A stretch of 24,118 nucleotides of DNA. Origin: a virus. Below the pieces are notes generated by a model. That model ran no database searches and was not told the DNA's origin. It was given only the letters and a program-made list of their open reading frames with translations. The stretch spans positions 1-24,118 of IMG/VR virus record IMGVR_UViG_3300014868_000010; one strand, written 5' to 3'. The position numbers were made by a program, and so were the translations under genes. This document shows positions 12,438 through 20,014 of this stretch, piece after piece; the first letter of the stretch is position 1; each line of letters starts with the position of its first letter.

Positions 12438-13208
12438 ATGCCTGCCTCCAAGAGCCCCGCCGTCCCCGGTCAACGCCGCCTGGAGTACCTGCCGCTCCGC
12501 CAGATCATGAGCGCCCCCCGGAACCCCAACGGCCACGACCTGCCCGCCATCGCCGCCTCCATCCGCCGGCACGGCTTCGTGGAGCCGGTGGTGGTGGACG
12601 AGCGGACCGGGTTCCTCGTGGGAGGCCACGGCCGCCTGGAGGTGCTCGCCGAGATGCGAGACGCCGGAGAGCAGCCCCCCGAGGGCATCGTGGAGCAGGA
12701 GCGAGCCGAGAACGACGTGGCCGCCGAGCCGGAGTGGCTGGCGCCGACCATCCTGGGCTGGGCGTCCCGCTCAGACGCCGAGGCCGAGGCGCTTCTGCTC
12801 GCCATGATGAAGCTCCCCAAGACGGCCGTCGCCTCGATGGACCTCCTCGCCACGATGCTGGACGAGCTCTCGCAGGGCACCGAGCTCGCCCTCGCCGGGA
12901 CCGGGTACAGCCCCGACGACCTCGATGACATCTTGGCTGGCCTGTCCGAGAGCGCACCCCTGACCGAGCTGGAGTACGGGGACAGTCGCAAGAGCGCCTA
13001 CCCCGAGCCGTCGTACGGGGAACGCACCGACAACTACCGCAACAAGCAGGTGCGGGCGATGGTGTTCGACTACCCGCTGGACGATTACGCCCTGGTCGCC
13101 GAGATGGCCGCCCGGGCCCGGGGCGCCTTCGGTGTGCAGTCCAACGCCGAGCTGTTCCAGCGGATGCTGGAGGCGTGGTGCATGCAGAACCCCGAGACGC
13201 CCGCATGA
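12438..13208 (+). CDS. ParB-like nuclease-domain protein, 256 aa
   Basis: The N-terminal 75 residues carry the ParB/sulfiredoxin-like domain: a YLPLRQI strand, NPNGHD, then LPAIAASIRRHGFVEPVVVD and the VGGHGRLEVL motif at 61-70, which is the ParB phosphate-binding box with Gly replacing the usual second basic residue. A helical region follows, and the C-terminal 90 residues are alpha/beta without known motif. Phage ParB-like proteins of this kind occur beside DNA modification genes and are thought to bind or nick DNA or use CTP/ATP. It starts the predicted hypermodification operon and overlaps the dioxygenase gene by 4 nt. Start ATG 12438 has no Shine-Dalgarno, consistent with leaderless initiation. 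Confidence 0.75.
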   Translation: MPASKSPAVPGQRRLEYLPLRQIMSAPRNPNGHDLPAIAASIRRHGFVEPVVVDERTGFLVGGHGRLEVLAEMRDAGEQPPEGIVEQERAENDVAAEPEWLAPTILGWASRSDAEAEALLLAMMKLPKTAVASMDLLATMLDELSQGTELALAGTGYSPDDLDDILAGLSESAPLTELEYGDSRKSAYPEPSYGERTDNYRNKQVRAMVFDYPLDDYALVAEMAARARGAFGVQSNAELFQRMLEAWCMQNPETPA

Positions 13209-14134
13209 GCGACACCGAGCTCGCCCCCGCCGTCACGGTCCGTCTTGCCCCGCTCGACCCGGAGGCCCGCAAGGCCGCACTCGACCTCCTCGGCAAGGGC
13301 GCCGCCCTGGAGCCCCCCGGGGCGATGATCAAGGCGCCGTGCCTCGTGCGAGCCGGAGACGAGCTCGTGGCAGTCGTTCTCAGGATGCCGCCGGGCCCGC
13401 TGGCCTGGGTCCGCAAGGCGCTTCTCGGCTGGCCGTTCGACACGACCACGTACCGTTCGGCTGGCATCAAGAACAACGCCCGGACGTTCGGCTACCTGGC
13501 CCGCAACACGCTCCTGCAGCGTGACGGCTGCCGGGCCTGCCAGGGCTCCCGGCTGGCGCCCGAGGCCCACCACGGCATCGTGGCCCAGGCAGAGCTCCTG
13601 TCCGCCATGCTGGCCGAGGCCGCCCCAGAGCTCGCCGCCCGGGACCGGGCCGCCGCCGAGGCCGTCTCGCCGGAGTGGCGCATGGGCGACAGCCAGTGGA
13701 CCTCCGGGGTGGCGAACAGCACCTCCGTCCTGCCCTACCACTTCGACCGCAACAACCTGGAGCCCGTCTGGTCAGCGATGATCGTGGTGCGGAGGGGCGT
13801 GCGGGGCGGCTACCTCCACGTGCCCGAGCTCGGCGCCTCGTTCCACTGCCGAGACGGAGACGTGGTGTGCTTCCCGGGCTGGCGCTTCGTGCATGGCGTC
13901 ACCCCGGTCAAGATCGTGGAGCCCGACGGCTACCGCATCTCCGCCGTGTACTACTGCGTGGAGCAGATGCGGGCGTGCGGCACCGGAGCCGAGGAGATGG
14001 CCCGGGCACAGCTCGCCCGCACCAACCGGGAGGCCGACACCAGGCCCACCGTGGACCGCATCCCGGCTGCGATCGCCCGCCGAGATGCCGCTTCCAAGCC
14101 CACGGTTGAGGACGACGAGAGTGACGAGCTGTGA
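13205..14134 (+). CDS. TET/JBP-like 2-oxoglutarate/Fe(II) dioxygenase, 309 aa
   Basis: Predicted to hydroxylate the methyl group of thymine or 5-methylcytosine in phage DNA, using Fe(II), O2 and 2-oxoglutarate. The double-stranded beta-helix is visible at about 170-252: YHFDRNN with H179-x-D181, GGYLHVPELG (about 201-210), a GDVVCFPG strand, FVHGVTP with His230, and YRISAVYY with Arg244 as the likely 2-oxoglutarate ligand. An upstream RTFGYLARN segment, CRAC (Cys109, Cys112) and HH (122-123) resemble phage TET/JBP proteins. The ATG at 13205 overlaps the ParB stop by 4 nt and avoids a longer upstream GTG form. No DNA methyltransferase gene lies in the window, so the substrate base is unresolved. 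The assignment is by motif and by neighbours. Confidence 0.72.
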   Translation: MSDTELAPAVTVRLAPLDPEARKAALDLLGKGAALEPPGAMIKAPCLVRAGDELVAVVLRMPPGPLAWVRKALLGWPFDTTTYRSAGIKNNARTFGYLARNTLLQRDGCRACQGSRLAPEAHHGIVAQAELLSAMLAEAAPELAARDRAAAEAVSPEWRMGDSQWTSGVANSTSVLPYHFDRNNLEPVWSAMIVVRRGVRGGYLHVPELGASFHCRDGDVVCFPGWRFVHGVTPVKIVEPDGYRISAVYYCVEQMRACGTGAEEMARAQLARTNREADTRPTVDRIPAAIARRDAASKPTVEDDESDEL

Positions 14135-15069
14135 CCCTGAACCCCGACATGGGCGCCCTCGATGACCTCGCCACCTTCGCCCGCATCGAGGTGGAGAGCC
14201 GAGACGTGGAGCCGTGGGCCGACCTCCTCCGCCACCTGTACATGGAGGACGGGGCGCTGAGCCTGGAGGCCGCCCTGTGGCTGGTGGCGCTCTACAACAC
14301 GTACGACAGCCTGGGCTCCGCCTGCTCAGTGTTCGCCCGCTGGCCGAGCCCGCACGAGCTCCTGACGGCCGCCGACTTCCCCGACAGCGCCCAGTACGAG
14401 TGCACCCAGGAGCGCCGCAACCTCAGGGGCGGCCTCGTGCTGACCCGCCACGCCTCCTACGGAGCTCTCGTGATGGGCGGAGACGGCACCCAGGCCTACT
14501 GGCTCGGCCAGGGCATCCCCCAGCCCGACGTGACGACTGACTGCTGCGACACCGGAGGCGCCGAGGCCGCCTGGGAGCCGATGACCCGCCACCTCCGCCG
14601 AGTGTGGGGCGTGGGCCGCCAGGCCGCCTTCGAGTGGGCCGAGTTCCTCGCCAAGGTGGTTGGGATGCGGCTGACCGCCCCCCACGCCCAGCTGTGGGAG
14701 AGCGAGGGCCCGAGACGGAGCCTGCAGCGCCTCTACGGCAACCCCGACCCGGACCGGGCGTGGCTGGACGAGGCCGCCCTGGAGTGCCGGGCGTGGCTGC
14801 TCTCGCAGGGCATCGACCTCTCGTGGGAGGACTTCGAGACGATCATCTGCGACTTCAACGTGATGCGGGACGGCCGCTACTACCCGGGCCGCCACCTGGC
14901 CGCCCTCCGGGAGGAGATCGACGGCGTGGCCGAGTCGGCGCTCCGGGCCGCCCTGGAGCACGCATGGGAGCAGGTCGTGCCGCCCGAGTGGCAGTGCATT
15001 GACCCGGGCATCGACAAGGCCAAGCTGCCCGTCTACCGGGACTCCGGCCTGATCAGGAGCTCTGCATGA
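14131..15069 (+). CDS. Amino-acid:DNA-transferase-like protein (aGPT-Pplase2, helical glycosylase-like fold), 312 aa
   Basis: The family is known from phage DNA hypermodification operons, where it is predicted to replace a phosphorylated hydroxymethyl pyrimidine's leaving group by an amino acid or related amine. Visible signatures are the ALWLVALYNTYDSLGS helix (48-63), a SAQYECTQERRNLRGG basic segment (86-101), a GVGRQAAFEWAEFL helix-hairpin-helix-like segment (160-173) and a late ETIICDFNVMRDGRYYPG segment (236-253), all helical. Its start, GTG 14131, overlaps the dioxygenase by 4 nt. Neighbours on both sides (TET/JBP-like, kinase) are the expected partners. The chemistry here is inference from the published predictions for the family, and the amino acid attached is unknown. 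Confidence 0.68.
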   Translation: MTLNPDMGALDDLATFARIEVESRDVEPWADLLRHLYMEDGALSLEAALWLVALYNTYDSLGSACSVFARWPSPHELLTAADFPDSAQYECTQERRNLRGGLVLTRHASYGALVMGGDGTQAYWLGQGIPQPDVTTDCCDTGGAEAAWEPMTRHLRRVWGVGRQAAFEWAEFLAKVVGMRLTAPHAQLWESEGPRRSLQRLYGNPDPDRAWLDEAALECRAWLLSQGIDLSWEDFETIICDFNVMRDGRYYPGRHLAALREEIDGVAESALRAALEHAWEQVVPPEWQCIDPGIDKAKLPVYRDSGLIRSSA

Positions 15070-16133
15070 CGCCCGAGGAGACGGCCCGCTTCCTCAACGG
15101 CTACGCCCGCCGCCACGCCGCCGGGGCGTTCGCCACGCCCCTTGCTCGAGAGTTGAACGACGGCAACGTCCGCATCTGGAAGAACCCGCTCGGCCGCACT
15201 GTCGCCGTGACCAAGCGGCTGACCCGGGACAGCGTCCGCACCGACTGGCTCGGCCAGCCGTACACGCTTCCCCGGGGCGCCACCATCGTGACGCACCTCG
15301 GCCGGGAGACGGGCTCCCCCATCCCAGCCGACCTGGACGAGTACCACGCCATCTACGCCTACGCCGACGACCTGGAGCTGACCGCCGGGCTGGGCCGCCT
15401 CGGCCGGGAGGTCACAGCCACGAGGATCAGCGCCGCCTCCGAGATGATCCACTGCTGGGGGTGGCCGGGCACCGCCCGCCCGACGCCCCTCCTCGACGGC
15501 CTGACCGTGGTGCCGGTCGCCACGCACTCGGGCGACCTCCTCAACGCCTGCCGCCGAGAGCTCGCCCGGGCGACGGGGTGGGCCGATGACTACCCGTTCT
15601 ACTCAGACGGCTCCTGGTCGGCGCTGTCCCTCCGGGGCTTCGACCCGGACCCGGCCTGGGGGGTGAAGCCCGCCGAGATGGGCCGCAAGTGGAACGACGC
15701 CCACCCGGGGGCTCTCCGCCGGACGTGCGTCTGGACCGACCTCGCCGACCGCTGCCCCACCCTCGTGCAGATCGCCTCGCAGCTGCCCGGGGCCGGGCTG
15801 GAACGGGTCCGCCTGATGCGCATGAAGCAGGGGAAGCTCGCCCGCCACACCGACATCACCGACAAGGCCAGCGGCCTCCGGGACGGGCAGATCGCCCGCT
15901 TCCACCTGCCCCTGATCACCAGCGAGCTCGTCGCCCTCCACGTCTGGGAGCTGTCCGGGGAGCTCCACAACTGGCACCTCGACGTGGGCGTCTGGTACTA
16001 CCTCGACGCCCGCAAGCCGCACGCCGTCACCCAGGGCGACCCTGACCTCGACCGCATCCACCTCGTCGCCGACGTCATCTGCGACGAGTCCACCCGCTCC
16101 TACCTGGAGGCTTCATGCTCGGCTGCTACCTGA
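15066..16133 (+). CDS. Aspartyl/asparaginyl-hydroxylase-like 2OG dioxygenase with unassigned N-terminal domain, 355 aa
   Basis: The C-terminal third has the beta-hydroxylase double-stranded beta-helix: RVRLMRMKQG, then RHTDITD with H261-x-D263, an RFHLPLIT strand, a WELSGELHNWHLDVGVWYYL stretch, KPHAVTQGD with His319, and Arg330 eleven residues later as probable 2-oxoglutarate ligand. The N-terminal 200 residues are alpha/beta with no motif I can name; a GNAT-like or other group-transfer domain is possible. The gene overlaps the transferase by 4 nt and the kinase by 19 nt, so it belongs to the modification operon. It might hydroxylate the group attached to the base, or amino acid residues of a protein. 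It is the second, structurally distinct dioxygenase in the island. Confidence 0.68.
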   Translation: MTPEETARFLNGYARRHAAGAFATPLARELNDGNVRIWKNPLGRTVAVTKRLTRDSVRTDWLGQPYTLPRGATIVTHLGRETGSPIPADLDEYHAIYAYADDLELTAGLGRLGREVTATRISAASEMIHCWGWPGTARPTPLLDGLTVVPVATHSGDLLNACRRELARATGWADDYPFYSDGSWSALSLRGFDPDPAWGVKPAEMGRKWNDAHPGALRRTCVWTDLADRCPTLVQIASQLPGAGLERVRLMRMKQGKLARHTDITDKASGLRDGQIARFHLPLITSELVALHVWELSGELHNWHLDVGVWYYLDARKPHAVTQGDPDLDRIHLVADVICDESTRSYLEASCSAAT

Positions 16134-16678
16134 TCGGCCAACCTGGCGCCGGCAAGTCCACCCTGTTCCGGGAGGTGACCCAAGGCATTCCGAGCTACGA
16201 GAGCTCCCAGCCGTTCGCCCACACCGTGTACCTGCCCGAGCCGTCGGGGGGCCGCCCGATCGGCGCTCAGCTGGGCCGCCACCACGAGACGTTCCCGGGT
16301 ACCGACCGCCTCAGCATGGCCGTCCAGCCCGACGCCGAGGCGTGGGTGCGCTCCGCCCCCTACCCCGTCATCATCGGCGAGGGCGACCGTCTCGCCACGC
16401 TCGGCTTCCTCACAGCACTGACGGAGGCGTGCGACGAGGGCTGCACCATCCTGTGGCTGGACACGCCCCAGTTGACCGCCAGGGCCCGGGCGACCCGCCG
16501 GGGCTCAGCCCAGACGGAGGCGTGGGTGAAGGGCCGCCGCTCCAAGGTCAACCGGCTGACCGACCTCCTGCCGGTGGTCCGGCTCGACGGCACCCTCAGC
16601 CCGGAGCTTCTCGCCGTGCAGGCCATCGGGGCGTCCCCCGCCTTGCAGGCGCTCCACGCCCTGGTGCCCGGCCTCTGA
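16115..16678 (+). CDS. P-loop kinase of the DNA-hypermodification type, 187 aa
   Basis: Walker A GQPGAGKST at 8-16 sits at the extreme N-terminus, as in small nucleotide and 5-hydroxymethyl-pyrimidine kinases. A GAQLGRHHETFPGTDRLSM segment about residues 49-67 with an FPGTD motif, then YPVIIGEGD (about 83-91) as the likely Walker B strand and an RARATRRG basic lid, match the phage kinase family that phosphorylates hydroxymethyl bases in DNA. ATG 16115 overlaps the dioxygenase end by 19 nt, with GGAGG at 16106-16110 upstream. Role by family: activate the hydroxyl made by the TET/JBP-like enzyme so that the transferase can replace it. Nucleotide or phage-protein kinase are alternatives. Confidence 0.7.
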   Translation: MLGCYLIGQPGAGKSTLFREVTQGIPSYESSQPFAHTVYLPEPSGGRPIGAQLGRHHETFPGTDRLSMAVQPDAEAWVRSAPYPVIIGEGDRLATLGFLTALTEACDEGCTILWLDTPQLTARARATRRGSAQTEAWVKGRRSKVNRLTDLLPVVRLDGTLSPELLAVQAIGASPALQALHALVPGL

Positions 16679-16693
16679 CCAGGCTCGTCCCGG

Positions 16694-16726
16694 TAGACGC
16701 CCCAGGCTAACCCGTGTTAGCCTGGG
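16694..16726 (+). promoter_or_regulatory. Promoter with palindromic operator, copy C
   Basis: TAGACG at 16694-16699 and TAGCCT at 16718-16723 are spaced by 18 nt. The palindrome CTAACCCGTGTTAG (16707-16720) extends here to 11-bp perfect arms, 16701-16711 and 16716-16726. It drives the DUF932 unit and, by position, could also terminate the modification operon as a hairpin. Confidence 0.6.
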
Positions 16727-16729
16727 TAG

Positions 16730-16746
16730 GCCCCCAACCGGGGGGC
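16730..16746 (+). promoter_or_regulatory. Hairpin at the 5' end of the predicted DUF932 mRNA
   Basis: GCCCCC at 16730-16735 pairs with GGGGGC at 16741-16746 around a 5-nt loop. The predicted transcription start from copy C is near 16730, so the mRNA would begin with this hairpin, which may protect its 5' end. The Shine-Dalgarno AAGGAG at about 16762 lies outside it. Confidence 0.35.
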
Positions 16747-16775
16747 GTCACACACAGCCCAAGGAGAGCCCCAAC

Positions 16776-17828
16776 ATGCCCGACTACTTCGAATCAGGCT
16801 TCGCCGTCCGAGATGTCTCCTGGCACGGCAAAGAGACGCTGCTGCAAGAGCACCCCGAGAACTGGGCGGCAGCCCGCATCCTCGCTGGCCTCGACTGGGA
16901 GCCCGAGTACCAGGACCTCTACGTCCCCGAGGTCATCCCCGCCGGGGAGAGCGCCCCCGAGGGCTCCATCCATATCAAGGCGATGGGCAACGACAGCGCC
17001 GACCTGTGGCACGTCCCGGTCAACGGCCACCAGGCCATCATCCGCAGCGACAACCGGAAGGTGCTCGCCACCCCCAAGGACTCGTTCCGGCTGATCAGCA
17101 ACACCGAGATGGGCGACCTCCTGGAGGCGTACAGCGAGGCGTGGCGCAAGGCCGGAGCCAAGGTGCTGTTCGACACCGCCGGGTCCGTCTACGAGGGCCG
17201 GTGGGTGTACGCCACGCTCCTGCTGGACGAGCCCTACACCATCCCCGGCGACCCCAGCCCCATCCTCCCGTACGCAGCGTTCCTCAACGCCCACGACGGC
17301 ACGGCCGCCTGCAAGGTCGTCAACACTCAGGTCCGGGTCGTCTGCGCCAACACGTGGAAGATGGCCGACGTGGAGGGCGAGCGCTCTGGCCGCCAGATCG
17401 TCATCCGCCACACGTCCGGTGCGACGGAGCGCCTGGAGGAGGCCAAGGCCGCCCTCGCCAGCGTCCGTGACGAGGTGGCGAACTACCAGATGCTCGCCAC
17501 CGAGCTTGCCTCGATCAACGTCTCAGACGCCCTCGTCAAGACGTTCCTCAGCGAGTTCATCCCGGTGCCGGAGAACAGCTCCGAGCGCACCCGGACGGCC
17601 CGCCTGGAGCGCCAAGGCATGTTCATGGCGCTGTACGCCTCGTCGCCCACGACCGACGGCATCCGGGGCACCGCCTACGGCCTCGTGCAGACGGCCGGGG
17701 AGTACCTGGACCACCTGCGCCCCGTCCGGAACAGCGACACCTACCTGGCCCGCACCCTGTTCAACAGCGAGCCCATCAAGGGCAACGCCGTCCGCCTCGT
17801 CCGAGAGCTCGTGCAGGAGGGCGTGTGA
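16776..17828 (+). CDS. DUF932 (phage/plasmid-like) protein, 350 aa
   Basis: DUF932 family (phage/plasmid-like protein TIGR03299), recognised by the N-terminal SWHGKETLL motif, the DWEPEY strand, the segment around residues 174-195 with NTQVRVVCANTWKM, and the C-terminal YLDHLRPVRNSDTYLARTLFNSEP region. Length fits the family (about 300-350 aa). The family's biochemical role is unknown. It is common in phage and plasmid early regions and has been linked by gene context to DNA metabolism. The start has AAGGAG at about 16762. It heads the transcription unit after operator copy C and overlaps the next gene. Confidence 0.85.
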   Translation: MPDYFESGFAVRDVSWHGKETLLQEHPENWAAARILAGLDWEPEYQDLYVPEVIPAGESAPEGSIHIKAMGNDSADLWHVPVNGHQAIIRSDNRKVLATPKDSFRLISNTEMGDLLEAYSEAWRKAGAKVLFDTAGSVYEGRWVYATLLLDEPYTIPGDPSPILPYAAFLNAHDGTAACKVVNTQVRVVCANTWKMADVEGERSGRQIVIRHTSGATERLEEAKAALASVRDEVANYQMLATELASINVSDALVKTFLSEFIPVPENSSERTRTARLERQGMFMALYASSPTTDGIRGTAYGLVQTAGEYLDHLRPVRNSDTYLARTLFNSEPIKGNAVRLVRELVQEGV

Positions 17829-18346
17829 TGGCCGCCCCGTCCCTGCCCCGAGTGTCCGTCACCCCTCCCCCCCTTGCGGGGGGAGAGGTGCGCTCGGGCT
17901 CCCTTTCGCTCAACGCCGTGGCGGCCTGGAACACGGGCGTCTACGCCGGGGAGCTCCTGCGCTTCGGCTTCGACGTGGAGCTCCGGGACTACCACGCCCG
18001 GGGCCTCACCCAAGGCCTCCTGTGGGTCGGGCGTCCCGGCCTGGAGCCCGGCATGGTCCGGGTGGAGCTCGACCCGGAGAGCAACAGCCTCCGGGGCGTC
18101 TGGGACCGCTGCGTGGTGGTCCTGTACGGCAGCCAGCTGAACGCCCTTTCGGGCATGGTGCGCCGGAACCTTCGCCGCCTCAGGGAGCACGGCTCCGGCC
18201 GCCCCCCCGAGACGGTGGCGACCCAGGAGGCTTTCCTGGTGCGTCTGCTTGAAGCGCTGGCGGAAGCCGGGGCCAACAACCGATACGACGCAAGCGCCCG
18301 CCCCGAGCGAGCTCTGACCGTCGTGCCTGACTACGAGGAGAACTGA
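17828..18346 (+). CDS. Unknown protein, 172 aa
   Basis: The start could be GTG 17825 or ATG 17828; ATG 17828 gives the common TGATG stop-start overlap. The N-terminal 25 residues are proline-rich, followed by an alpha/beta region with a LLWVGRP strand, a DRCVVVLYGSQLNALSGMVRRNL helix and a C-terminal helix. No cysteine pairs, no membrane segment, no motif recognised. The polycytosine and polyguanine run at about 17867-17885 could form a local hairpin in the mRNA. The next gene starts by a 1-nt overlap. Confidence 0.65.
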   Translation: MAAPSLPRVSVTPPPLAGGEVRSGSLSLNAVAAWNTGVYAGELLRFGFDVELRDYHARGLTQGLLWVGRPGLEPGMVRVELDPESNSLRGVWDRCVVVLYGSQLNALSGMVRRNLRRLREHGSGRPPETVATQEAFLVRLLEALAEAGANNRYDASARPERALTVVPDYEEN

Positions 18347-18903
18347 TGCACAGACTCATCCGCACGGCCGCCGCTGCGGCCCTCGGCCTCTCCGCCCTGT
18401 GGCTGACAACCACAGTCCCGGCTGGGGCCACCAACCCGCCTCCCGTGTGCGAGAACAACGGGCGTGAGTTCACCTACAACCCGTCGACCACCCAGTGCAC
18501 GCCCCCGACCACGGGGGCTACGACGACAGGGGCGACCACCACGGCCGCCACGACCACGACAGCCACCACCCTCCCGCCGACCACCACCGTGCCGCCGACC
18601 ACCACCACCGTGTTCAACTGCGGCCTGTGTGCAGGCCAGTTCGGCACGACCACCACGACCGCCCAGGCCACGACGACCGTTGCCCCTCCGGTGACGACAG
18701 CGCCCCCTACGACGCAACCTGCGCCGCCGCCGCCCGACACAACGCCTGAGCACGTGACCGTCCCCGACGCCCCCGCCACCACAGCTCCGCCGGAGCTTCC
18801 CGTGACCGGCAGCCTGTCGGGCCCGATGGTCGCATGGGCTCTCGCCGCCGGTGCCGTCGGCCTCGCCCTCGTGGCGTTCGCCAAGGCTGTCCGCCGGGCA
18901 TGA
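18346..18903 (+). CDS. Secreted LPxTG cell-wall-anchored Thr/Pro-rich surface protein, 185 aa
   Basis: The protein has every part of a sortase substrate. A signal peptide occupies about residues 1-28 (positive start, alanine/leucine core, VPAGA cleavage site). A short Cys-containing segment (Cys35, Cys51) follows, then Thr/Pro-rich stalks with TTT repeats, a small NCGLC motif (Cys92, Cys95), and the sorting signal LPVTG at 151-155 with a hydrophobic stretch of about 20 residues and a KAVRRA basic tail. Host sortase would cleave between Thr and Gly and join it to peptidoglycan or a pilus. The Thr-rich stalk is likely glycosylated in actinobacteria. A phage gene for a surface protein suggests host-surface alteration, for example superinfection exclusion. 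The start is ATG 18346 (1-nt overlap). Confidence 0.8.
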   Translation: MHRLIRTAAAAALGLSALWLTTTVPAGATNPPPVCENNGREFTYNPSTTQCTPPTTGATTTGATTTAATTTTATTLPPTTTVPPTTTTVFNCGLCAGQFGTTTTTAQATTTVAPPVTTAPPTTQPAPPPPDTTPEHVTVPDAPATTAPPELPVTGSLSGPMVAWALAAGAVGLALVAFAKAVRRA

Positions 18904-19031
18904 ACGGAGGCCTGACCGCCCTGACGCTCCCGCTGTGGGGCGTCTGGGCGGTCGCCTTCGCAGCGATGTTCCTCGCCCTCCTACTCGAGGAGCGAGTCCA
19001 CGAGTGGCGGAGACGCCGGAGGCACCGATGA
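18900..19031 (+). CDS. Tiny membrane protein, one TM helix and basic tail, 43 aa
   Basis: ATG 18900 overlaps the LPxTG gene stop by 4 nt. Residues about 6-29 form one hydrophobic helix (WGVWAVAFAAMFLALLLE), followed by an Arg-rich tail, which by the positive-inside rule is cytoplasmic. No known motif. Being coupled to the surface protein gene it is probably part of the same envelope function. Confidence 0.65.
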   Translation: MNGGLTALTLPLWGVWAVAFAAMFLALLLEERVHEWRRRRRHR

Positions 19032-19144
19032 CCACGACCAAGCCCTACGGCTGCATGAGTTTCCTGTTCGACCTGCTGATGGTCATGCTCACGGGTGGGC
19101 TCTGGCTCATCTGGATATTCGTGCGGGAGATGCGCAAGCGATGA
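19028..19144 (+). CDS. Tiny membrane protein, 38 aa
   Basis: Too short for routine gene calling, but ATG 19028 overlaps the upstream stop by 4 nt and the stop overlaps the next ATG by 4 nt. A single hydrophobic segment (about residues 11-31, with FLFDLLMVMLTGGLWLIWIF) is followed by a basic end (REMRKR). The layout resembles small phage membrane proteins of unknown role. Confidence 0.6.
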   Translation: MTTTKPYGCMSFLFDLLMVMLTGGLWLIWIFVREMRKR

Positions 19145-19344
19145 CCCGCCGGGCGAGAGAGCTCCTGCTGCTCGCCCTCGTCGGCGCCCTCTACCTCTGG
19201 GTGGGGGGCGCTTTGGCGTGGGGCGCCCTGACGGCCCCGGAGGAGCCCCCTCGGACCCGCAGGTGGGCCGGGGTGGAGTACAGCCCCGAGGCCTGCTACG
19301 TGAACGACGCCGGGGCTCTCCTGTGCGTCTCGGGGCTCGCATGA
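19141..19344 (+). CDS. Small membrane or secreted protein, 67 aa
   Basis: ATG 19141 overlaps the upstream stop by 4 nt. A basic start (TRRARE) and a hydrophobic stretch (about residues 8-30) form a signal anchor or signal peptide with an Ala-x-Ala-type exit. The rest is hydrophilic with two cysteines (Cys52 and Cys62) that could form a disulfide outside the cell. Third tiny envelope gene in a row. Confidence 0.6.
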   Translation: MTRRARELLLLALVGALYLWVGGALAWGALTAPEEPPRTRRWAGVEYSPEACYVNDAGALLCVSGLA

Positions 19345-19547
19345 CCCTCCTGGCCGGAGCTCACCTCCACGTCGCCACGGACGCCTTCGGCACCCTCCGC
19401 CTGACGGCTACCCGCCGGGGCGTCTGGACCACTATCGCCATCCCCAACATGCCCTACCGGGCCGACGCCCAGGGCGTCCTCGACGTCACTCTGGCGATGC
19501 TCGACGCCCGCCTCGCCGAGGAGGAACAGGCAGGCTCCGGGGCGTAG
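19341..19547 (+). CDS. Small unknown protein, 68 aa
   Basis: ATG 19341 overlaps the upstream stop by 4 nt. It has a strand-rich first half (LHVATDAFGTLRLTATRRGVWTTIAI) and a helical end (VLDVTLAMLDARLAEEEQA). No motif recognised. Its TAG stop at 19545 forms the -35-like TAGACC of operator copy D. Confidence 0.6.
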   Translation: MTLLAGAHLHVATDAFGTLRLTATRRGVWTTIAIPNMPYRADAQGVLDVTLAMLDARLAEEEQAGSGA

Positions 19548-19574
19548 ACCACCGGGGCTAACCCGTGTTAGTCT
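19545..19574 (+). promoter_or_regulatory. Leaderless promoter with palindromic operator, copy D
   Basis: TAGACC at 19545-19550 (first three bases are the upstream stop codon) and TAGTCT at 19569-19574 are 18 nt apart. The palindrome CTAACCCGTGTTAG is at 19558-19571. Only 6 nt separate the -10 from ATG 19581, so the mRNA should have no leader; no Shine-Dalgarno is present. Confidence 0.6.
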
Positions 19575-19580
19575 GGGGCT

Positions 19581-19781
19581 ATGACAACCACCCAGCCCAA
19601 GAGGCACCCGCTGGTCGGCTGCAAGATCACCGACAACGGCATCGTTGGCGGCCTGACCGGCCGCATCGTCCACGTCTTCCCCGACGCCATCTCCGTCAGC
19701 TGGAACGGCAGCGAGCAGGCGTCCCAGATCAGCCTCGCCCGCATCAAGGCCGGGCAGTTCAGCGTGGAGGTGGCAGCATGA
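19581..19781 (+). CDS. Small SH3/KOW-like beta-barrel protein, 66 aa
   Basis: The start follows copy D directly. The sequence GGLTGRIVHVFPDAISVSWNG then SQISLARIKAG is a run of short strands with the turn pattern of a small SH3-type or KOW-like barrel, a fold often binding nucleic acid or protein. No cysteine pair. The family is not recognised. The next gene overlaps the stop by 4 nt. Confidence 0.6.
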   Translation: MTTTQPKRHPLVGCKITDNGIVGGLTGRIVHVFPDAISVSWNGSEQASQISLARIKAGQFSVEVAA

Positions 19782-20014
19782 CCGACGAGATGCGCACCCC
19801 CGGCTTCGCCCGAGGCCCGATCAACTACGCCCTCCAGACCTGCCCCGAGGGGTACTGCCCCGAGTGCAGCGAGCCCGACGACGAGTGCGAGTGCGTCCGG
19901 CTCCCCAAGCCCCCGGCCCGCACCCCCGTCCAGGCTGAGGCCCTCCTCGCCCGCCAGATCAACACCGAACGCAAGGTCGCCGAGTCGATGGCGTACTGGG
20001 CCGCCCGCCGGTAG
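19778..20014 (+). CDS. Small zinc-binding protein, 78 aa
   Basis: ATG 19778 overlaps the upstream stop by 4 nt. A dense CPEGYCPEC...CEC cluster at about residues 22-38 is likely to hold one zinc. A helix rich in Ala/Glu follows. Its TAG stop begins a further TAGACGCCCC copy at 20012, but no operator follows it there. Confidence 0.65.
   Translation: MTDEMRTPGFARGPINYALQTCPEGYCPECSEPDDECECVRLPKPPARTPVQAEALLARQINTERKVAESMAYWAARR

Follow-up and report, generated by a model that had tools for sequence, protein, structure and literature searches.

A phage gene for an LPxTG surface protein with an exchangeable ectodomain and a possible role in remodelling the host surface

Introduction

What use would a phage have for a protein built to be anchored in the cell wall of its host? 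The question is raised by positions 1 to 24,118 of an IMG/VR virus record (IMGVR_UViG_3300014868_000010), a stretch of 24,118 nucleotides referred to below as the window (W). A preliminary description, made from the letters of this DNA, had reported an open reading frame (ORF) for a sortase substrate coupled to genes for three tiny membrane or secreted proteins, and had suggested that together they may alter the surface of an actinobacterial host. Here we examine the sorting signal, the gene neighbourhood and the relatives of this protein, and weigh what it may do for the phage.

Results

The window encodes a single protein with a complete sorting signal

Every element of wall-anchored design in the preliminary description (signal peptide, Thr/Pro stalk, LPVTG, hydrophobic segment and basic tail) was found in the ORF at 18346-18903 (Table 1). 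It starts with ATG a short way downstream of GAGGAG, and the N-terminus of the protein runs from basic residues through a hydrophobic segment to AGAT. The stalk is made of Thr, Pro and Ala, with Thr accounting for 35% of residues 21-150.

The sorting signal was sought with a homology-blind rule requiring LPx[TSA][GANS] near the C-terminus, a hydrophobic segment next to it and then at least two Lys or Arg residues, in all ORFs of at least 60 aa. Just one of the 168 such ORFs in the window matched, and it was the ORF described above. The same rule matched 15 of 143,200 shuffled ORFs (approximately 1e-4 per shuffled ORF) and one of 20,000 shuffles of the LPxTG protein itself, by which a chance match is ruled out. 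No Pfam, NCBIfam or PHROGs family matched the protein at E<=0.1.

Table 1. Features of the LPxTG operon and of the elements that border it (window coordinates).
Feature	Coordinates	Strand	Remarks
Repeated intergenic element	16704..16723 (core at 16708)	+	Core CTAACCCGTGTTAG..; upstream of operon; probable operon-head/regulatory site
DUF932/TIGR03299 protein	16776..17828	+	First gene of operon; Pfam E=5.6e-42; NCBIfam TIGR03299 E=2.7e-66
172-aa protein	17828..18346	+	Coupled to LPxTG gene by TGATG; counterparts in G004 and G007 66-72% identical
LPxTG protein	18346..18903	+	185 aa; signal peptide, two Cys pairs, Thr/Pro stalk, LPVTG sorting signal
LPVTG motif	18796..18810	+	Codons 151-155; then hydrophobic segment and KAVRRA tail
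43-aa protein	18900..19031	+	Membrane protein with one span and an Arg-rich tail; G004 and G007 have orthologues
38-aa membrane protein	19028..19144	+	Relatives in Gordonia/Rhodococcus phages; not kept here in G004 and G007
67-aa protein	19141..19344	+	Hydrophobic N-terminal segment; two conserved Cys in C-terminal part; identity to orthologues 84% and 70%
68-aa protein	19341..19547	+	Last gene of operon; ATGA-coupled (overlap)
Next copy of repeated element	19559..19574	+	Bounds operon (element scan)

The gene recurs in several phages

The same phage, at approximately 99.9% identity, is present in other metagenomes as records G001 (51,785 bases), G002 (40,006), G003 (30,561) and G008 (14,282), and the 1,801-base LPxTG region was unchanged in two of four other records and carried one mismatch in the other two. 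G002 begins with the 12,006 bases that end G001 (99.99% identity), so the genome should be circular or circularly permuted, at approximately 56.9 kb. In the diverged, syntenic phages G004/G005 and G007, the LPxTG gene occupies the same place, together with the 43- and 67-aa genes; there, as in the window, it comes after the DUF932 gene and the 172-aa gene, the latter lying immediately 5' of it. At 265 and 262 aa, the G004 and G007 proteins exceed that of the window in length, and most of the extra length is an N-terminal domain of approximately 75 aa, which we refer to as the ectodomain. Recurrence in several records and synteny in two diverged phages rule out a stray host insertion in one assembly, the doubt that the preliminary description had itself raised, and uphold its view that the gene is phage-borne.

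Two more remote records, G009 and G010, also carry the gene. As judged from gene calls made by a simple codon-position-GC script, not a trained gene finder, G010 is distantly related to G001 and syntenic with it (29 of 101 gene calls match, median identity 43%), and only five of the 56 gene calls of G009 match G010 and one matches G001. The LPxTG gene does not follow DUF932 in G010 and is found instead inside a cassette (L045, 4204-9403) of glycosyltransferase-like, FkbM methyltransferase, PIG-L deacetylase and methyltransferase genes. In G009 it lies near a holin-like gene that scores below the Pfam cut-off. A cassette matching that of G010 is present in G001 at 42239-46805, where the rule-based scan found no second sorting signal. 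Because the peptide-pattern scans used to find relatives reach close ones only, the prevalence of this family is a lower bound.

A sorting signal was detected in one ORF each in seven of eight records scanned (W, G001, G002, G004, G007, G009 and G010), and this ORF was always the homologue; in G006, no ORF of at least 60 aa matched the rule. Since W, G001 and G002 represent a single phage, these matches amount to five distinct proteins (W, G004, G007, G009 and G010), all of which possess LPxTG, the hydrophobic segment and the basic C-terminal tail on a stalk that diverges. Signal peptides, called by a hydropathy rule together with a basic N-terminus, were predicted at the ORF start in W, G004 and G007; for G009 and G010, where the longest ORF begins further upstream, the prediction required an internal start. 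Searches with the Pfam Gram_pos_anchor model (PF00746, curated cut-off 20 bits) gave 20.8 bits for G004, which is above the cut-off, and 18.7 bits by hmmscan or 22.7 bits by genome search for G010; no match passed the cut-off for G009 or G007, G007 having no match to this model and W none at E<=0.1. The number of Cys residues outside the membrane segment is even in all five proteins (C289 of G009 not being counted), which is compatible with disulfides. On reading the sequences, the first Cys pair of the window protein (C35 and C51) resembles a Cys loop within the G004 stalk.

The operon extends beyond the genes for tiny proteins, one of which is replaceable

The 4-nt coupling of the LPxTG gene to the 43-, 38- and 67-residue genes described earlier proved to be exact, with ATGA overlaps at 18900, 19028 and 19141, and the coupling extends further in both directions. 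The 68-aa gene is attached to the 67-aa gene through one more ATGA, the fourth, at 19341, and a TGATG at 18344-18348 marks the overlap of the LPxTG gene with the upstream 172-aa gene, for the product of which no Pfam, NCBIfam or PHROGs family match was found. The unit thus comprises seven genes, i.e. those for DUF932, the 172-aa protein, the LPxTG protein and the 43-, 38-, 67- and 68-aa proteins. It holds non-structural genes and adjoins DNA-modification genes; virion genes are not alongside.

The earlier association of the LPxTG gene with three tiny proteins holds in part. The 43-aa gene (orthologues 72% identical in G004 and 60% in G007) and the 67-aa gene (84% and 70%) are kept in both diverged relatives, but a 54-aa gene stands in place of the 38-aa gene in G004 and nothing does so in G007, by which a fixed trio is ruled out as far as the 38-aa gene is concerned. 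Relatives of the 38-aa protein were found in 59 phage records, 55 from Gordonia and four from Rhodococcus phages, with identities of 60-80% in 17 and below 60% in 42. In the one such region that was read, in Gordonia phage Perkunas, no LPxTG annotation was present nearby. A membrane gene common among actinophages, the 38-aa gene stands outside the conserved set. In the 12 kb around the LPxTG gene of G009 and G010, no homologues of the 43- or 67-aa proteins were found.

Immediately upstream of the operon in the window, at 13175-16678 on the plus strand, lies a cluster resembling those for DNA base hypermodification, with overlapping frames for a Tet/JBP-type oxygenase, an amino acid:DNA transferase (ADDT), an Asp/Arg-hydroxylase-like protein and a P-loop nucleotide kinase. 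A diverged copy of this cluster is present in G006, where the rule found no sorting signal. In the mosaic relative L006 (record G011, 4,530 bases), the start of the LPxTG gene and the gene upstream of it are 99-100% identical to the window and the amino acid:DNA transferase further upstream is only 73% identical, a difference between neighbouring stretches that shows recombination near the LPxTG locus.

Scans of 16600-19800 for promoters and terminators, and of the whole window with Rfam, returned nothing. A repeated intergenic element with the core CTAACCCG[GT]GTTAG was found in one direction at 2797, 9065, 16708, 19559 and 20133; the window has seven matches against 0.01 expected, with some palindromic copies counted on both strands. 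The copies at 16708 and 19559 bracket the seven-gene unit, and the same element precedes the same genes in G004 and G007; it was not found in G006, G009 or G010. We consider the element a probable regulatory or promoter site of the phage, or an operon head.

The ectodomain is shared by nearly unrelated phages

The ectodomain of G004 and G007 is bounded by Cys residues (YWC ... ILC), and the same domain of approximately 75 aa is present in G009 and G010, there too combined with LPxTG and a Thr-rich stalk. The window protein is without it and retains the stalk, the Cys pairs and the anchor. The ectodomains of G009 and G010 are 86% identical even though these genomes are nearly unrelated, and this provides strong sequence evidence that the domain has been exchanged horizontally between phages.

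In Nei-Gojobori comparisons, made without confidence limits on very GC-rich sequences, pN/pS was 0.26-0.63 for the ectodomain (six pairs), 0.41-0.47 for the 67-aa gene, 0.36-0.69 for the 43-aa gene, 0.40-0.48 for DUF932 and 0.57-0.68 for the 172-aa gene, and reached high values of 0.66-0.75 when the window LPxTG protein was compared with the four others. These values suggest constraint on the ectodomain and on the small genes, and a loose stalk.

AlphaFold2, given the four ectodomain sequences, returned a beta-rich model (mean pLDDT 79.2, pTM 0.69) without a fold match at E<=0.001 in PDB or BFVD. The domain matched no Pfam family, and the single match of a PDB sequence search, Antigen 43 at E=1.7, was disregarded. 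Two scans of genome contigs with narrow peptide patterns, which reach close relatives only, retrieved no cellular relative of the ectodomain, and no relative of the ectodomain or LPxTG protein was found among PLSDB plasmids or the named phages of INPHARED.

The phage probably relies on a host sortase and is probably virulent

WhiB genes are typical of Actinobacteria and their phages. They were found in G001, G003 and G009 and in none of the other seven of the ten records searched, and their presence indicates an actinobacterial host, in line with the initial assignment. Named-phage relatives of the DUF932 protein have mostly actinobacterial hosts; those of the terminase vary more in host, phages of Mycobacterium, Microbacterium and Gordonia being the most frequent, all at low identity.

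A phage-encoded sortase was found in none of seven records, which rules out the phage's own enzyme in these records, and a host sortase is therefore probably used for anchoring; it is a reasonable inference that the host possesses a sortase recognising LPxTG. Likewise, neither tyrosine (PF00589) nor serine (PF00239) integrase families matched at E<=0.1 in any of nine records, with positive controls, so that the phage is probably virulent, with plasmid-like or other lysogeny possible. These absences are meaningful for the phage of the window because G001 and G002 together close the circle of approximately 56.9 kb.

Discussion

Given how the sorting signal is designed and conserved, and that no sortase was found in the phage records searched, it is highly probable that the LPxTG protein is anchored by the sortase of the host. 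For what this anchoring would achieve, we tentatively favour the view that the gene is a phage 'moron' that remodels the host surface, its product forming an anchored coat for superinfection exclusion. The protein would be exported by the host Sec system during infection, cut between Thr and Gly by the host sortase and linked to the host peptidoglycan, so that infected cells would bear a dense Thr/Pro-rich coat, probably stiffened by disulfides and possibly glycosylated. This coat, together with the small membrane proteins of the operon, would then block adsorption or DNA entry of competing virions, with the exchangeable N-terminal ectodomain setting the specificity and the window phage having a stalk-only version. 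Blocking of adsorption, or exclusion, would fit best with an exported stalk, an exchangeable tip and a non-structural operon that includes small membrane proteins. Precedents are outlined in PMC9863714: receptor binding can be blocked by proteins of prophages, and at least one LPXTG protein of a host, GamR, serves as a phage receptor, so that the protein might also plausibly mask or mimic a wall receptor. The PADLOC defence models matched none of ten proteins at E<=1. Still more doubtful is the broader possibility that virulent actinobacteriophages share a horizontally traded wall-decorating module, with exchangeable ectodomains on a common stalk and anchor, for superinfection exclusion.

Stalked LPxTG proteins are often adhesins, and an adhesin or aggregation factor, by which infected cells (or any lysogens) would stick to surfaces, polymers or other cells and progeny would be freed beside new hosts, has to be weighed. 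The compact beta-rich ectodomain predicted here (mean pLDDT 79) would suit it, and SasX, an LPXTG protein borne by prophages, is thought to act in colonisation and virulence (PMC8655729 and PMC7285666). The window copy, however, is without the ectodomain, and a virulent-looking phage would have little time to gain from adhesion; we regard this explanation as unlikely. The missing ectodomain is also the starting point for the view that the window gene is a decayed or neutral passenger, functional in the ectodomain form of the relatives and retained in W as a stalk-only remnant through translational coupling. The missing domain, together with the lack of a family-model match, could mean decay, and pN/pS is high in W. 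Against decay, the reading frame, the signal peptide, the even Cys number and the full sorting signal are all intact, and the LPxTG region is nearly invariant among the records of this phage, and so we hold this view to be rather improbable.

Some of the evidence does not single out exclusion, notably the sugar cassette around the G010 gene and the holin-like gene near that of G009. Both would accord, as would the inferred virulent lifestyle, with an aid to release, in which the coat hides the receptor used by this phage on dying cells and wall debris and keeps progeny from re-adsorbing. Mechanically this resembles exclusion, the beneficiary being the burst of the same phage, but in W, G004 and G007 the gene adjoins DUF932 and the 172-aa gene and not lysis genes (the amidase gene of the window is at 1550-2323), and there is only a small chance that release is its role. 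Very improbable, finally, is a decoy, an overproduced substrate that occupies the host sortase, so that the LPxTG or pilus proteins of the host, possible receptors among them, are no longer displayed; retention of the sorting signal in all five proteins, even the one free of the ectodomain, agrees with this, yet a decoy would need neither a long stalk nor a horizontally exchanged, selected ectodomain.

Returning to exclusion by an anchored coat, the trading of an ectodomain among nearly unrelated, virulent-looking phages suggests that wall decoration helps the phage during infection. Should exclusion be correct, covalent wall anchoring would join the known means of exclusion, as a wall-anchored counterpart of the membrane and lipoprotein exclusion proteins, and would inform on the wall receptors of the hosts. 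The LPxTG, 43-aa and 67-aa genes form a small testable set.

Comparison with known systems

In its general build (signal peptide, stalk, LPxTG, hydrophobic segment and basic tail), the protein is like the sortase-dependent LPXTG proteins of Gram-positive bacteria (PF00746), but it is encoded by a phage, and its family's ectodomain has neither a Pfam match nor, in the two narrow-pattern scans, a cellular locus. Receptor-blocking superinfection-exclusion proteins, as PMC9863714 presents them, share with it the proposed outcome, other phages being kept off the infected cell; the LPxTG protein would reach this end by another route, covalent attachment to the wall, and PADLOC gave no match. The likeness to Butters and CarolAnn, as summarised for prophage defence in actinophages, lies in the proposed outcome only. 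The closest parallel in kind is SasX/SesI, an LPXTG surface protein of staphylococcal phiSPbeta-type prophages according to PMC8655729, which is likewise a phage-borne gene product anchored by a host sortase. By description, the only level at which the two were compared, SasX/SesI belongs to a Firmicutes prophage, whereas the phage of the window has actinobacterial hosts and no integrase was found in it, and the N-terminal part of its LPxTG family varies between phages. Among the titles and abstract openings searched, no report of LPxTG proteins in actinobacteriophages or virulent phages was found. Phage-borne LPXTG surface proteins are, then, already known as a kind from SasX/SesI; it is the family, the host group and the apparently virulent setting that look new within INPHARED, PLSDB, the two contig scans and the literature searched.
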